Positions 19,792-25,384 of a stretch of DNA of 64,000 nt are shown here, piece by piece (within the stretch, counting starts at the first letter, position 1; every line of letters begins with the position of its first letter). The position numbers were made by a program, and so were the translations under genes. Source of the DNA: Natronoarchaeum philippinense (GTDB taxonomy: Archaea > Halobacteriota > Halobacteria > Halobacteriales > Natronoarchaeaceae); the NCBI RefSeq assembly GCF_900215575.1, contig NZ_OBEJ01000002.1, forward strand, positions 682,001-746,000, read 5' to 3'. The notes below the pieces were generated by a model. It was not told the DNA's origin. It worked only from the letters and a program-made list of their open reading frames with translations, and searched no databases.

Positions 19792-20295
19792 CTACTCTCT
19801 ATCAGCGTCCGGCGCGTCGTTTTCTTCAGAGCCGCCGCCCACAGCGTCGCCCACGTCGAACTCGTCGATCCCACCGCCATCGTCGTCGAGACCGTCGAAC
19901 ACCTCAGCCCCCTCGGGTCGCCGCGAGACGCCGGGGCTGTCCGATCGGTCGGGACGGGCCGATCCGTCCGGCCGGTCGGACCGGTTCGGACGCCGTCCCG
20001 GCGGGGGCGCGTCGGGATCGCCGCCGGTTCCCGATTCCGGCCGCGGGACGAACTTCCCGCGGCGACTCGCCGCGCGCTGGTCGCCGACCGCCTGCGCTCG
20101 CGTCGCGGCGTCCCACTCCTCGAAGAAGCCGTGATCGCGCATCGTCGCCATCCCGGCGATCGCCGCCCGGAGGTTGATGCCGATCAGCGGAATGTCGGCG
20201 ACGGTGACGATCACGTCGGCCTGCAGCATCGCGCCGTCCCGGAGGAGCACGTCGAGCAGGTCGACCACCGCGTCGTCGTCGCGGCTCGGTTCCAC
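19792..20295 (-). CDS. gvpM: Gas vesicle protein GvpM (GvpA/J/M family)
   Basis: The 167-residue protein has the GvpA-like core VVDLLDVLLRDGAMLQADVIVTVADIPLIGINLRAAIAGM at residues 10-49, in the variant typical of GvpM (LLRDGAMLQADV, FEEWDAA). GvpM is a minor protein required early in gas vesicle assembly and tends to aggregate unless bound by GvpF, H or L. The C-terminal 90 residues form an Arg/Pro/Asp/Gly-rich tail longer than in the textbook halobacterial GvpM. The start is the GTG at 20295. It is the last gene of the leftward gvpF-M operon. Confidence 0.92.
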   Translation of the reverse strand: MEPSRDDDAVVDLLDVLLRDGAMLQADVIVTVADIPLIGINLRAAIAGMATMRDHGFFEEWDAATRAQAVGDQRAASRRGKFVPRPESGTGGDPDAPPPGRRPNRSDRPDGSARPDRSDSPGVSRRPEGAEVFDGLDDDGGGIDEFDVGDAVGGGSEENDAPDADRE

Positions 20296-20301
20296 GCAGG
20301 G

Positions 20302-21180
20302 TCACCTCGTCCCCTCGTCGTGCGGATCTTCGGCGTCGTCGGGAGATTCGGCGGCGAACTCCGGGGCGAACGTGTAGGGCGGCCACGGACCGGTGAACTC
20401 GATCTCGACACCGGGGTTGGCGGCGACCTCGTCGAGCGCTGCGCCCAGCGCGTCGACCTCGGCGTCGCGGGCAAGCGCGGCGACGCGCTGGGCCGGCTGC
20501 TCGGCGGCGTCGACGCCGTCGAGCGTCGCGCGGCGGCGACCGAGCACCTCCGCTCGCTCGACGTGGGGGGCGATTCGACGCCGAAGCGCTTCGAGCAGTT
20601 CCTGTCGGTGTTCGCGGAGCCGTTTGCGCAGTTGCTGGTCGTACTGTTTCTCCAGCAAGAACGATGTGCCGGCGTCGGCCTGCTCGGTTCGAGCGCGCAG
20701 CGACCGGAGCTCCTCGTCTTCGGCAGCAAGCTCGTCGCCGAGCCGTTCTTCGTCGAGGTTCAGCGAGATGCGGTACTCCCAGCGGTTCGAGAGTTCGTCG
20801 AGATGCACGCGAGCGTCGGCTCGGACCTCGTCGAGCCACTGGCGGACCGTCCCGTCGTCGCCGGGCAGAATCGTGTGAAAGCGAAACGGGATCGGCGTGC
20901 CGAAGGCCTCGCCAGCCTCGTCGACGACACGCTGGTGGGCGAGCAGCCATCGCCTGACCTGCCGGGGATTGTCCGAATCGTACGTCGATTCGCAAGTGTG
21001 GACGACCGCGCCGACGCCGCCAGTTCTCACCAGTTCGGTGGTCGCACCGTCGAGGCCGTCGGCGGCGACGGCATCGTCGTCGGCGCCCTCGCCGACCGCC
21101 ACGAGGCAGTAGAGGTACCGTCCCTCGTCGAACTCGGCGCCAGAATCTTCGCTCGGCTCTTCGTCGGTCGGATCGTGCAT
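20302..21180 (-). CDS. gvpL: Gas vesicle protein GvpL (GvpF/L family)
   Basis: The 292-residue protein belongs to the GvpF/L family. It has the N-terminal strand YLYCLVAVGEG, VRRWLLAHQRVVDEAGEAFGTPIPFRFHTIL in the first domain, a central coiled coil (about residues 150-230) and the C-terminal phrase EFTGPWPPYTFAPEF, which closes the GvpF/L fold. GvpL is essential and binds several other minor Gvp proteins during nucleation. It begins 6 bases after the gvpK stop and ends 6 bases before the gvpM GTG. Confidence 0.94.
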   Translation of the reverse strand: MHDPTDEEPSEDSGAEFDEGRYLYCLVAVGEGADDDAVAADGLDGATTELVRTGGVGAVVHTCESTYDSDNPRQVRRWLLAHQRVVDEAGEAFGTPIPFRFHTILPGDDGTVRQWLDEVRADARVHLDELSNRWEYRISLNLDEERLGDELAAEDEELRSLRARTEQADAGTSFLLEKQYDQQLRKRLREHRQELLEALRRRIAPHVERAEVLGRRRATLDGVDAAEQPAQRVAALARDAEVDALGAALDEVAANPGVEIEFTGPWPPYTFAPEFAAESPDDAEDPHDEGTR

Positions 21181-21186
21181 CGGTGA

Positions 21187-21534
21187 TTACTCGCTCTGGT
21201 CGGGTGACATCGGTTGGTAGTCGGCAGTGTCATCCAACGGTCCCTGCTCGACGTCGAGCCCGCGGATGGCATCGCCGACGATGCCGTCGAGGTCGCCGCG
21301 GAGGCTGTCGACCTCCTCCTCGATTCCCTCCTCGCGTTTGATCCCTTCGACCTCGGCTTCGAGTTGGGCGAGTTGCTCGCCGAGGCGCTCGATCTCCTCG
21401 TCGGCGAGCCGGCCGCTTTCCATCCGGCGGACGGCCTCGCGCTCCATCGCCTCGATCAGGAGTTCGACGACGGTGAGCAGCAGGGCCATCAGCCCGGAGC
21501 GAGCCTGATCGCCGTCGACTGAGATCTCCGTCAC
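21187..21534 (-). CDS. gvpK: Gas vesicle protein GvpK
   Basis: The 115-residue protein has the GvpK pattern: GLMALLLTVVELLIEAMEREAVRRMESGRL, then EIERLGEQLAQLEAEVEGIKREEGIEEEV. GvpK is one of the eight proteins essential for vesicle formation in haloarchaea. The start is a GTG at 21534, 24 bases after the gvpJ stop. Confidence 0.94.
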   Translation of the reverse strand: MTEISVDGDQARSGLMALLLTVVELLIEAMEREAVRRMESGRLADEEIERLGEQLAQLEAEVEGIKREEGIEEEVDSLRGDLDGIVGDAIRGLDVEQGPLDDTADYQPMSPDQSE

Positions 21535-21558: not shown

Positions 21559-22020
21559 TCACTCCTCGTTCGCATGTTCGTCCTCCTCGCTGTCCGAGGT
21601 TGTCTCGGTTTCGGCGTCCCGTTCGTCCGCGTCTGGAGCTTCGACTTCGGCGTCCTCCGTGACGCTCGCCGTCGGGACAGGGCCGACGTTGACATCGGCC
21701 GGACCGTCGTCGAACACCAGTTCCGAAAGCCGGGTTTGGTCCTCGTCGACGCCGTCGTCGGTCGTTACGGCGGGGACGCCGGTCTGTGCCTCGACGCGCC
21801 GGCGGTCGGTGCCGCTGGGAAACTCCAAGCCGTACTTCGCGGCCGTCTCGAACGACGCGAGCGCGGCCCGGATCTTGACGCCGATGAGTTCGGTGTCGCC
21901 GACGGTCACCGCGATGTCGGCGTTGATCACGACGCCCTTGTCCAGCAGCATCTCGACGACATCGGCCAGATCGCTCTTCCCCCGCGTCGGCTGGGGGCCC
22001 GTGGTCCCGCGTCGGCTCAC
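21559..22020 (-). CDS. gvpJ: Gas vesicle protein GvpJ (GvpA/J/M family)
   Basis: The 153-residue protein carries the GvpA-like core LADVVEMLLDKGVVINADIAVTVGDTELIGVKIRAALASF and the GvpJ-specific continuation AAKYGLEFPSGTDRRRVEAQTGV. It is an essential minor structural or nucleating protein. The C-terminal 80 residues are acidic and longer than in Halobacterium GvpJ as I recall it. The GTG start at 22020 overlaps the stop of a 21-codon ORF (GTGA), and GGAGG lies about 10 bases upstream inside that ORF. Confidence 0.93.
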   Translation of the reverse strand: MSRRGTTGPQPTRGKSDLADVVEMLLDKGVVINADIAVTVGDTELIGVKIRAALASFETAAKYGLEFPSGTDRRRVEAQTGVPAVTTDDGVDEDQTRLSELVFDDGPADVNVGPVPTASVTEDAEVEAPDADERDAETETTSDSEEDEHANEE

Positions 22021-22087: not shown

Positions 22088-22888
22088 TTACCTCCGTCTG
22101 TCGAACCGGTTGCCGTAGATGCGCGTCCTGCTCGGCGCGGTCGAGTACGGAGATCGCTTCGGGACCGTCGAGTGCTTGGTGGCGCTGCCGCCGACCTCCG
22201 GCCGGTCGGTCGGCATCGTCGAGTTCGCCGTCGGGTTCCGCGAGTTCGTGTCCTGCCTGTCGCGTTGGCGGCGCATCTGCTCGCGGTTCGTCTCGTACAG
22301 CTCTCGAAGCGCGTCGTGGGCTTCTAGCACCCCCTCGCGGAACTCGTCGACGGCGTCCATCGCTTTCTCTTGGATCGCGACTTGGTAGGCCTCGTCGGGG
22401 AGCTCCCCGAGGGCCCCCATCTCGCCGCCGAGGCTGCCGTCGTCGGCTCCGGCGATCGACCCGTCTTCGTCGCCAGTCGTATCGCCGCCGTCGTCAGTGC
22501 TGTCGAGCACATCGTCGGTGGCGTCTGTCACGGCTTTCGACTTCGAGACGAGATCGGTGAGGTCCGCGGCCGATGCCAACTCGCGGAAGTCGATCGCCTT
22601 CAACAGGGCGGCGTAGTCGACGGCTTCGCTGGCGTCTCGCCGCCTGATCGCTTCGGGCACGTCGCCGGCTTCGAGGGCCGCCAGCAAGTCGTCGGCGTCG
22701 ACGGCGTCGGGGAGCTCCGACACGTCGATCGTCCCCACGAGATCGGCGGCTTCGTCGGCGGCGTCGTGGAGCGCGCGCAGTCGCCCGAGCACGCGACCCG
22801 GATCGTCGTCATCGGCGAGGCGGTCGAGCGACGCTTCGGCGCGGTCCACCAGCGCCGAGAGTCGGTCGGCGCGAGTCCGTTCTGTCAT
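22088..22888 (-). CDS. gvpI: Gas vesicle protein GvpI-like with long N-terminal extension
   Basis: The 266-residue protein sits between gvpH and gvpJ, the position of gvpI. The basic Ser/Thr/Arg-rich C-terminus (about residues 205-266, with KHSTVPKRSPYSTAPSRTRIYG) resembles the end of halobacterial GvpI as I remember it. GvpI is an accessory protein that influences vesicle length. The N-terminal 200 residues are acidic and helical (repeated Asp-Asp, Ala, Leu), which is unusual because the known GvpI is small (about 140 residues) and basic throughout. It overlaps gvpH by four bases. The identification rests on position and C-terminal composition. Confidence 0.62.
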   Translation of the reverse strand: MTERTRADRLSALVDRAEASLDRLADDDDPGRVLGRLRALHDAADEAADLVGTIDVSELPDAVDADDLLAALEAGDVPEAIRRRDASEAVDYAALLKAIDFRELASAADLTDLVSKSKAVTDATDDVLDSTDDGGDTTGDEDGSIAGADDGSLGGEMGALGELPDEAYQVAIQEKAMDAVDEFREGVLEAHDALRELYETNREQMRRQRDRQDTNSRNPTANSTMPTDRPEVGGSATKHSTVPKRSPYSTAPSRTRIYGNRFDRRR

Positions 22889-23523
22889 CGGCTGATCACC
22901 TCGTCGGGGTCTCCCGCGACGACGCTGTCGTCGATCCGAACTTCGAGGACGTAATTGTTGAGCGTCGCCTGCACGGCGGAGGCGTCCCAGCGTTCGATCG
23001 GGACGCGGGCGAGCGTCTCGCGCGGGGTCCTGACCACGAGCGTCCGACGATCGTCGGTGACACCGACCGTGATGTCGGATGCGTCGACGCCCGGGAGATT
23101 CGCAGTCACCACGACGGTCTCGCCGTCGTGGCGAACCGTCGTTAGGTGCTCGCCCGTAGCGTCGGCGACACGGCGGCGGTGCCGGTCGCGCGCACGCCCG
23201 GTGCGGGCGTCGCCGAGCGCCCCCACAGAGGCATCGATATCCACCGCGAATCGGGAGGGCCTATCGCGCGAGGTGCTCGCCGGCCGTCGGCCGCGACCGC
23301 GGTCGGAACGGACCTCGCGGCCGGATCGGCCGGCGCGCTCACTCGCCTCGTCGAGAAACTCCAGCAGCGTCCCGACGTAGCCGCCGATGTCGAGGTCGAA
23401 CGGCCGGGTTGGTCCTTGACCCTCGCGGTCGCCGCCGCGCTGGTGATCGGACGTGTCGGACGCCTCGCGATCCGGTCGGTCGTCGGTGCGCCGGTCCTCC
23501 TCGTCGTTGCTGTCGTGTGGCAT
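22885..23523 (-). CDS. gvpH: Gas vesicle protein GvpH (Hsp20-like)
   Basis: The 212-residue protein has a hydrophilic, Arg/Asp-rich N-terminal half and a C-terminal alpha-crystallin-like part (TTVRHDGETVVVTANLPGVDASDITVGV, then LVVRTPRETLARVPI and NNYVLEVRI). GvpH is a chaperone-like accessory protein that keeps GvpM soluble. The phrase PFDLDIGGYVGTLLEFLDE is in the N-terminal half. The ATG at 23523 overlaps the gvpG stop by one base (TGATG). Confidence 0.9.
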   Translation of the reverse strand: MPHDSNDEEDRRTDDRPDREASDTSDHQRGGDREGQGPTRPFDLDIGGYVGTLLEFLDEASERAGRSGREVRSDRGRGRRPASTSRDRPSRFAVDIDASVGALGDARTGRARDRHRRRVADATGEHLTTVRHDGETVVVTANLPGVDASDITVGVTDDRRTLVVRTPRETLARVPIERWDASAVQATLNNYVLEVRIDDSVVAGDPDEVISR

Positions 23524-23783
23524 CAGCGTTTTACCTCGATCTTGCCGCTTGTCAGTTCGTCACGAACCTGTTCGGCCAGTTCGAGTTCGTCCTCCAGCTC
23601 CGCCTTGCGGCGTCGGTACTCCGATTCGGGGCGCTCGCCGATCTCGTAGAGCAGTTGGTTCTCCTTGAGCTCGTCCTGAATGCGGTCGATGTCGTACAGT
23701 TCCTCCAGCGCCATCGTCTGGAGGATGTCGAGCAGCGAGACGAACGGCCGGACGAGCAGGTCGTCGATCACGAGCATGGTCAC
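23523..23783 (-). CDS. gvpG: Gas vesicle protein GvpG
   Basis: The small helical protein has the family pattern MLVIDDLLVRPFVSLLDIL, MALEELYD, then KENQLLYEIGERPESEYRRRKAELEDELE. GvpG is an essential minor protein. The GTG at 23783 overlaps the gvpF stop (GTGA) and gives 86 residues; the ATG at 23777 gives 84 and fits the usual MxxIDDLLV start, so either is possible. Confidence 0.93.
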   Translation of the reverse strand: MTMLVIDDLLVRPFVSLLDILQTMALEELYDIDRIQDELKENQLLYEIGERPESEYRRRKAELEDELELAEQVRDELTSGKIEVKR

Positions 23784-24397
23784 TGCTGGGCGCCGATGCG
23801 GATGTCGACGAAATTGTAGGGTGCAAACGGGCCGGTGTACTGCACGACGGCGTCGTCGAGATCCCGTTCGAGTTCGCCGACGGCCTCATCGAAGGCGTCC
23901 CGGTCGGCGCGCTCGACGAGGTAGGCGTCGTTGACCAGCAGCCGATCGCTGAACAGGTCGTTTTCGACCACGTCGACGGCGGTCGGTTCGAGGCGATCCC
24001 GCGTGTCCGATCGCGCGCTCGCGCGATCGATGGTCGAGCCATTGGCAACCACTTTGACGCCGAGCTCGACCGTTCCCTCGACCTCATCGAGGGCGGTCTG
24101 AAAGGCCCGCCTGCCGCCACTGAGAACGTTCCGGAGCGTTCGCTCGTCGTTGAATGCCATGCCGAAACTCATCGGCACGACGGTTCGCTCGTCGAGGACG
24201 GCGCTCAGCACGCGATCGTGGGCCGTCATCGACTCGGTCGTCCGGTCTGGATCGGTCGTGTCGGCGTCGGAGACGACCGCGGACAGCCCGCCCGCTGTGA
24301 CGGTGTACGCGCGCTCGGCGCCGCCGACTCCCTCCACGTCCAGTTCGAAGTCGGCTGCCGGAACGATGCCGTAGACGTACAGATGATCGCCTGTCAT
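23780..24397 (-). CDS. gvpF: Gas vesicle protein GvpF (GvpF/L family)
   Basis: The 205-residue protein starts LYVYGIVPAADF and ends with QYTGPFAPYNFVDIRIG, both GvpF/L signatures. The central part includes RVLSAVLDERTVVPMSFGMAF. GvpF binds GvpA and is thought to keep it from aggregating before assembly. It is the first gene of the leftward gvpFGHIJKLM operon. The ATG at 24397 is used; the frame extends upstream, but that part is not GvpF-like and contains the promoter region. Confidence 0.93.
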   Translation of the reverse strand: MTGDHLYVYGIVPAADFELDVEGVGGAERAYTVTAGGLSAVVSDADTTDPDRTTESMTAHDRVLSAVLDERTVVPMSFGMAFNDERTLRNVLSGGRRAFQTALDEVEGTVELGVKVVANGSTIDRASARSDTRDRLEPTAVDVVENDLFSDRLLVNDAYLVERADRDAFDEAVGELERDLDDAVVQYTGPFAPYNFVDIRIGAQQ

Positions 24398-24575
24398 GAA
24401 CTCCCCCGAGTCTGCGGCCGGGTCGATGCCTGCCGCGGCACTCCTCACGTCGGAGTGCGATGCCGGAGACAATAAACCGGGGCGTATATCGGCCGTATTA
24501 TCTAAAATGCTCGTGTAATCGTATCCTGAACAACCCTCTTTAGGGAACCTGTGGAAGCCACGCCCGGAGAGAGAG
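24398..24575. promoter_or_regulatory. Divergent gvpF / gvpA promoter region with a 7-bp stem hairpin
   Basis: This region separates the two gas vesicle transcripts. On the minus strand, TTTATTG (24472-24478) is a good TATA candidate for gvpF. A perfect inverted repeat gcactcc/ggagtgc (24438-24444 and 24452-24458, 7-base loop) lies between it and the gvpF start, within the likely mRNA leader. Before gvpA there is an AT-rich block (attatctaaaat, 24495-24506) and a purine run ggagagagag just before the ATG at 24576, which may act as a ribosome binding site. Confidence 0.6.
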
Positions 24576-24848
24576 ATGGTACGCAAAGAGCCACAGGGAT
24601 CGAGTCTGGTGGAGGTTCTCGATCGGATACTCGACAAGGGCGTCGTCATCGACGTATGGGCCCGAATTTCGGTCGTGGGGATCGAGCTGTTGACCGTCGA
24701 GGCTAGGGTCGTCGTCGCCTCGGTCGATACGTTCCTCCACTACGCCGAAGAGATCGCGAAGATCGAGCAGGCGGCCGAGCAGGAAGAACTGGAGGAAGTG
24801 GAAGTCGACGCACCACAGCACGCTCCGGAACAATCGACAGAAGACTGA
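24576..24848 (+). CDS. gvpA: Major gas vesicle structural protein GvpA
   Basis: The 90-residue protein is nearly the textbook Gvp[58 protein letters not shown]. It forms the ribbed, gas-permeable wall of the vesicle. The C-terminal acidic tail ([18 protein letters not shown]) is longer than in Halobacterium as I recall it (76 residues). There is one copy of gvpA here. It is transcribed divergently from gvpF and followed by gvpO after 35 bp. Confidence 0.97.
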
Positions 24849-24883: not shown

Positions 24884-25384
24884 ATGGCAGAATCAGATAC
24901 GGCAGTCGATGACGGGCAGTGTCGCGCCCTCACAGAGAGCGGCCAGCGGTGCTCGCGGCCCGCGGACGACGACGGGTTCTGCTACCAGCACGACGGCTCC
25001 GATCCGACGGTCGACGACGAACGCGGCGACGACACGACCATGAGTTCCAACACGGACGACGCCGACGACGGGAACGAATCGGACGAGACACAGTCCGGGG
25101 ACGCCGACGCTGATCTCCGGGACGCCCGCGAGACGGCAAAGCAGGTCGCGGACGAGTTCATCGACGATCCGTTCGACGGCATCATCGAGATCACGCGCGA
25201 CGATGCCGACGGCGACTGGCGGGTGGTCCTCGAAGTGATCGAGCGCCGATCGATCCCCGACACGCAGGACATCCTCGGCCGCTACGAGGTGTCGGTCGGT
25301 CCCAGCGGCGATCTCGGCGGCTATCGGCTCACGGGGCGCTATCGCCGAGGAAACGTCTCCGACGAGCAGTCGCCGGAGCCGTGA
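24884..25384 (+). CDS. gvpO: Gas vesicle protein GvpO with N-terminal Cys3His motif
   Basis: The C-terminal part (about residues 70-166) matches halophile GvpO: DPFDGIIEITRDDADGDWRVVLEVIERRSIPDTQDILGRYEV, then GYRLTGRYRRG. GvpO is essential for vesicle formation and affects gvp transcript levels in Halobacterium. The N-terminus carries Cys13, Cys23, Cys33 and His36 in CxA-LTESGQRC and GFCYQH, a probable zinc-binding motif not present in the GvpO I remember. A 35-residue acidic linker joins the parts. It is co-transcribed with gvpA. Confidence 0.88.
   Translation: MAESDTAVDDGQCRALTESGQRCSRPADDDGFCYQHDGSDPTVDDERGDDTTMSSNTDDADDGNESDETQSGDADADLRDARETAKQVADEFIDDPFDGIIEITRDDADGDWRVVLEVIERRSIPDTQDILGRYEVSVGPSGDLGGYRLTGRYRRGNVSDEQSPEP

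Follow-up and report, generated by a model that had tools for sequence, protein, structure and literature searches.

The window, that is, the whole stretch of 64,000 nucleotides analysed here, carries a compact gas-vesicle cluster in which, by position, the minus strand encodes M L K J I H G F and the plus strand then encodes A and O. Its minus-strand part comprises gvpM (19792..20295, recognised by cluster search), gvpL (20302..21180) and gvpJ (21559..22020), both matched by NCBIfam models, gvpK (21187..21534) and gvpH (22885..23523), both matched by Pfam, gvpG (23523..23783; Pfam and NCBIfam), a gvpF ORF with an uncertain start codon (23780..24649; Pfam), and gvpI (22088..22888), which has no Pfam family and was assigned by its similarity to Halobacterium salinarum GvpI. 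On the plus strand, gvpA (24576..24848; cluster reading and profile matches) lies directly 5′ of gvpO (24884..25384), and the interval between them is too short for gvpC or gvpN. A profile search of the whole genome returned no match over the cut-off for GvpC, GvpN or GvpD, the best GvpD match scoring 17.7 bits against a cut-off of 24 bits, and no convincing GvpE homologue (best match 18.2 bits), which bears out the statement of the first-pass annotation that GvpD and GvpE are missing here. A scan for sigma-70 promoters, a bacterial type of search unsuited to archaea, came back empty.

The gvpO ORF encodes a halophile-type protein of 166 aa, as judged from its translation and from Pfam and NCBIfam matches. 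Pfam places the core domain (PF05800; 25079..25357, plus strand) at residues 66–158, with an E-value of 9.2e-24 and 83.7 bits (cut-off 25). Ahead of it, residues 12–45 (24917..25018, plus strand) match both DUF5763 (PF19067; E 5e-15, 55.1 bits against a gathering cut-off of 26.3) and GvpO_arch_Nterm (NF045806; E 1.8e-21, 75.4 bits against a curated cut-off of 52), an agreement with family models that is far beyond chance. The module holds the Cys3His motif C13-x9-C23-x9-C33-x2-H36 (24920..24991, plus strand), which is conserved in relatives and sits ahead of the core as the first-pass annotation had claimed, with residue numbering that is exact in the translation. With a score over the NF045806 cut-off, a fusion to the GvpO core and a gene inside a gas-vesicle cluster, the head of this protein is, judged by these matches, of an already catalogued kind (DUF5763; NF045806, ‘GvpO, halophile-type’) and not peculiar to this genome. 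In PHROGs, the full-length protein had no matches and the module piece gave three weak matches to uncharacterised families. Module and core are joined by an acidic, probably disordered linker (residues 46–65, 25019..25078, plus strand; AF2 pLDDT below 50 at residues 44–72), which contains a start-like internal Met53 (25040..25042, plus strand) of a kind also seen in the linkers of relatives.

To survey the module more widely, we used a draw of 391 genomes of the class, with profile searches per genome, and the gene neighbourhoods of 140 loci of the draw (two of them, L149 and L150, without GvpO), the window and 16 named loci; for about 29 further GvpO genomes of the draw, module status comes from the NF045806 HMM alone. 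PF05800 is present in 161 of the 391 genomes, and NF045806 exceeds its cut-off in 120 of them. The motif is widespread: direct reading of 163 GvpO ORFs found the strict form C-x9-C-x9/10-C-x2-H in 98, and the HMM detects the module in 118 of the 161 GvpO genomes. Two genomes (G213 and G340) exceed the NF045806 cut-off although they have no GvpO; their carriers (L149 9830-10594, L150 9262-10020) show a weak Gly-zipper-like or C19orf12-like match, and the model may misname these proteins as GvpO. Ligand loss was seen once, in the GvpO of L173 (9124-10080), where the first Cys is replaced by Arg; no gvpN was detected in this cluster. Haladaptatus-type clusters (L041–L045, L123, L125) hold two GvpO copies; the module is present on the copy behind gvpA and absent from the other, divergent copy. 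Some GvpO-domain proteins stand alone, the nearest 10 kb or so being free of further gvp genes (L091, L093, L101, L103, L050).

Within the module, conservation extends well past the putative ligands. Among 97 equally spaced GvpO proteins, module columns A3, T5 and Q23 are each identical in 97/97 and R10 in 96/97, and across 79 distinct modules the residues C, A, T, C, C, Q and H never vary; the search pattern itself demanded the four ligands and A or F at column 3, so that these columns were fixed by the way the set was selected. Module identity exceeded core identity in 678 of 680 divergent pairs of the 97 proteins, and the module was still the more alike in 634 of the 680 once the five pattern-fixed columns had been removed. 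Module and core distances correlate at 0.76, a value reached in none of 999 permutations. At the level of sequence, selection on the Cys3His head as a putative metal-site module is thus well supported, and head and core appear to have been retained as a unit.

DUF5763 matches all 79 distinct modules in Pfam, and zinc-finger families recur among the weaker matches: zf-primase in 43, the WRKY19 zinc finger in 42 (best 8.1e-5), the SAP30 zinc finger in 39 (E up to 1, best 9.6e-4), zf-C3Hc3H in 10 and WRC in 1, alongside TSP_1 and DUF6396 with one module each. The window's own module has no SAP30 zinc-finger match at E up to 1, and a sequence search of the PDB found nothing significant, the nearest entries being SAP30L/SAP30 (2n1u, E 0.043; 2kdp, E 0.37). 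The AF2 model of full-length GvpO is mediocre (mean pLDDT 64, pTM 0.42) and shows no metal; its module reaches a pLDDT of about 75 (70–78 over residues 11–40), the module modelled by itself reaches 55, and a fold search with the full-length model gave no matches at E up to 0.001. Because of this mediocre model and the lack of a significant fold match, zinc binding is something we infer, and the module very probably binds one zinc ion through three Cys and one His. Predicted haloarchaeal zinc motifs are reported not to bind zinc in every case (PMC11241148).

The module is not confined to GvpO. An archaellum FlaD/E protein (PF04659) of this genome carries a DUF5763-like Cys3His motif at its C-terminal end (G000:C1:866083-866232; L002 1528-2091, L006), and the same fusion occurs in one genome of the same genus and two of the same family (G242, G033 and G141; L217, L218 and L219), as seen in Pfam scans for this genome, G242 and G033 and by sequence reading for G141. 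In this genome and in G033 the FlaD/E copy scores below the DUF5763 cut-off, and in G242 it scores at the cut-off; a plasmid search with the fusion gave no match. Elsewhere in the genome, a small protein (G000:C2:669424-669525; L004, L007) combines an N-terminal zinc ribbon with a DUF5763-like C-terminal motif. Another protein, of 446 aa (L220 490-1827), pairs a P-loop-like segment with a DUF5763-like motif close to the C-terminal end; our guess is that it comes from a virus or plasmid.

The distribution of the module follows the absence of the vesicle coat protein GvpC. None of the 16 GvpC-bearing clusters has a GvpO module, and of the 129 GvpC-less haloarchaeal clusters 125 have a GvpO head, which is C3H in 97, decayed C3H in 1, helical in 22 and helix-hairpin-helix (HhH) in 5; the headless four are L098, L105 and L113, from one genus, and L107. 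This table leaves aside four methanogen clusters and L047 (which shares its contig with L146), counts the five solitary GvpO loci apart, and includes L151 and L156 as GvpC-bearing by hand, from the ORF between gvpA and gvpN. Both the helical module, which has no useful Pfam identity, and the HhH (HHH_5 in 5 of the 33 members of set A3) stand in the C3H position, and neither occurs in the C3H set. Over their cut-off, PF05465 GvpC repeats are found in 18 of the 391 genomes, namely 14 with GvpC clusters and G128, G157, G235 and G296 with single matches, none of them among the genomes in which NF045806 exceeds its cut-off. In C3H clusters, the ORF following gvpA is in 52 cases gvpN, at a distance of at most 12 bases, and otherwise gvpO within 500 bases, except in L043, L045 and L123, each with two gvpA copies; this proximity excludes a hidden gvpC behind gvpA. 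The detected GvpC proteins end in small modules of their own, a ROS/MucR-like C2H2 finger in 13 of 14 and HhH in the 14th (L120). GvpC-like repeat proteins missed by PF05465 (L151 7475-8731, L156 11158-12213) share a C-terminal segment with no useful Pfam match. A literature search did not find this exchange between GvpC tail and GvpO front, nor any paper using the term DUF5763.

Because the GvpO proteins of GvpC-bearing clusters form one clade (1 change) in our GvpO tree, the contrast between module and GvpC could reflect one historical event instead of repeated replacement, which is its main weakness. Well-supported branches of this tree, a quick one built from few alignment columns, require at least 2 changes in the C3H state, 1 in the helical and 1 in the HhH state. 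A single genome (G005) holds both states: L155 has the module and no GvpC, and L156 the reverse.

GvpC absence is a better correlate of the module than the absence of GvpD and GvpE, to which the first-pass annotation had linked it. GvpD and GvpE are present in just 8 of the surveyed clusters, all of them with GvpC and none with the GvpO module. The link fails because eight GvpC-bearing clusters in which neither was detected likewise lack the module (L089, L108, L110, L116, L117, L120, L151 and L156; six assigned by search, L151 and L156 from the ORF that lies between gvpA and gvpN; the L108 contig is truncated and the L156 cluster is partial). A stand-in for GvpD/GvpE can thus be discarded, as presence of the module follows the absence of GvpC and not that of GvpD/GvpE. 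Nor did we find support for the premise that GvpO affects gvp expression, its function being given as unknown in passages of two reviews (PMC9501494; PMC4390858). What stands of the earlier proposal is a plausible metal-site module that would bind protein or nucleic acid, given its invariant ligands and weak zinc-finger kinship.

Our main reading, to which we assign a probability of roughly 0.45, is that GvpO carries a zinc-stabilised docking head replacing the GvpC tail. Residues 12–45 would form a small zinc-stabilised module held on an acidic flexible tether ahead of the GvpO core, this module would dock GvpO to a partner in the vesicle-building complex, and the GvpO head would do in cis what the GvpC tail does. 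We read the GvpO front in this way because the zinc-finger-bearing C-terminal fragment of Halobacterium GvpC is reported, in the relevant passages of one study, to bind GvpO, GvpN, GvpF, H, I, L and itself in split-GFP and pulldown experiments (PMC9372576). Against the docking head stand the GvpO and GvpC modules themselves, which by their sequences are not homologous, the four GvpC-less clusters (three of one genus) without a recognisable module, the module-free second GvpO copies in Haladaptatus-type clusters, and the weak structure model. In addition, small modules are frequent in haloarchaeal proteins, so the base rate for small heads is not negligible.

That the module instead binds DNA or RNA, making GvpO regulatory or mRNA-linked, strikes us as rather doubtful. 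Its weak relatives are mostly fingers of DNA-binding type, typical nucleic-acid binders occupy the same place in other GvpO proteins (HhH) and the tails of GvpC (ROS/MucR-like fingers), and arginines R10 and R13 (96/97 and 92/97 in the module columns) flank the second Cys; however, the module is acidic, with a mean net charge of -4.0 over 32 aa (range -7 to -1; mean -1.0 over the stretch C1 to H24), its presence does not follow the loss of GvpD/GvpE, and it also sits on the archaellum FlaD/E protein, which has no nucleic-acid context. A zinc site that serves only to stabilise the protein or act as a buffer (keeping the fold stable at high salt, sensing zinc or redox state), with no dedicated partner, would account for invariant ligands and for the tethering of the module by an acidic low-complexity linker, but the non-ligand positions T5, R10, Q23, D28 and T30 are nearly as strict as the ligands and so suggest a binding surface; we give such a role slender prospects. 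It is highly improbable that the module is just carried along by clusters in decay, with GvpC-less clusters silent and the fusion devoid of present function: one review describes the species it names with clusters devoid of gvpC and gvpDE as vesicle-negative throughout in the laboratory, for unknown reasons (PMC4390858), and L173 lacks both Cys1 and a detected gvpN, yet the module is strongly conserved across families and gene order in the clusters is largely constant. This conservation argues that such GvpC-less clusters are used.

The docking head could be part of a broader scheme, which we consider unlikely as a whole. Each haloarchaeal cluster would have one exchangeable small head (zinc finger, HhH or helical) on an acidic tether, placed on the GvpC tail where GvpC exists and otherwise on the GvpO front; the growing vesicle would need the head rather than its carrier, for tethering the assembly complex to nucleic acid, the ribosome or a polar scaffold, and the C3H head is also present on FlaD/E. 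An internal Met would then give GvpO with and without its head. Such a Met occurs in 60 of 96 GvpO linkers, many of them from one family and hence not 60 independent cases. The next residue is T, A or S in 55 of the 60, against a background of about 22%. No Shine-Dalgarno enrichment was found 5′ of it (13/60 versus 29% of control codons). By its sequence context, the linker Met looks like a past or present start codon, and a second translation start at this position is possible. Halobacterium cannot form gas vesicles without GvpO, and the exchange pattern opens a concrete test of the roles of the GvpC tail and of GvpO; it also bears on how clusters without GvpC build vesicles.

PF19067 is a broader family without known function, whose weaker copies in this genome are those on FlaD/E and on the zinc-ribbon protein. 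The SAP30/SAP30L zinc finger (2n1u, 2kdp) resembles the module locally, around its second Cys, but the final CxxH of the module falls outside the matched stretch. Halobacterium salinarum GvpO has the same PF05800 core but no N-terminal module and no Cys at all, and its cluster includes GvpC, GvpD and GvpE. The first-pass annotation had held that absence of the motif from near relatives with working vesicles would speak against its proposed role; vesicle-making H. salinarum indeed lacks the motif, but species without gvpC and gvpDE are the ones reported as vesicle-negative in the review passage cited above (PMC4390858). The halobacterial GvpC C-terminal C2H2 finger is likewise a small terminal finger, encoded in the same operon and lying beyond an acidic stretch. 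It differs in starting with C-x2-C, ending with H-x3-H and being ROS/MucR-like rather than DUF5763; the window module, with C-x9-C-x9-C-x2-H, fails the ROS/MucR pattern C-x2-C...H-x3-H, and homology between the two is ruled out by their different spacing and different families.
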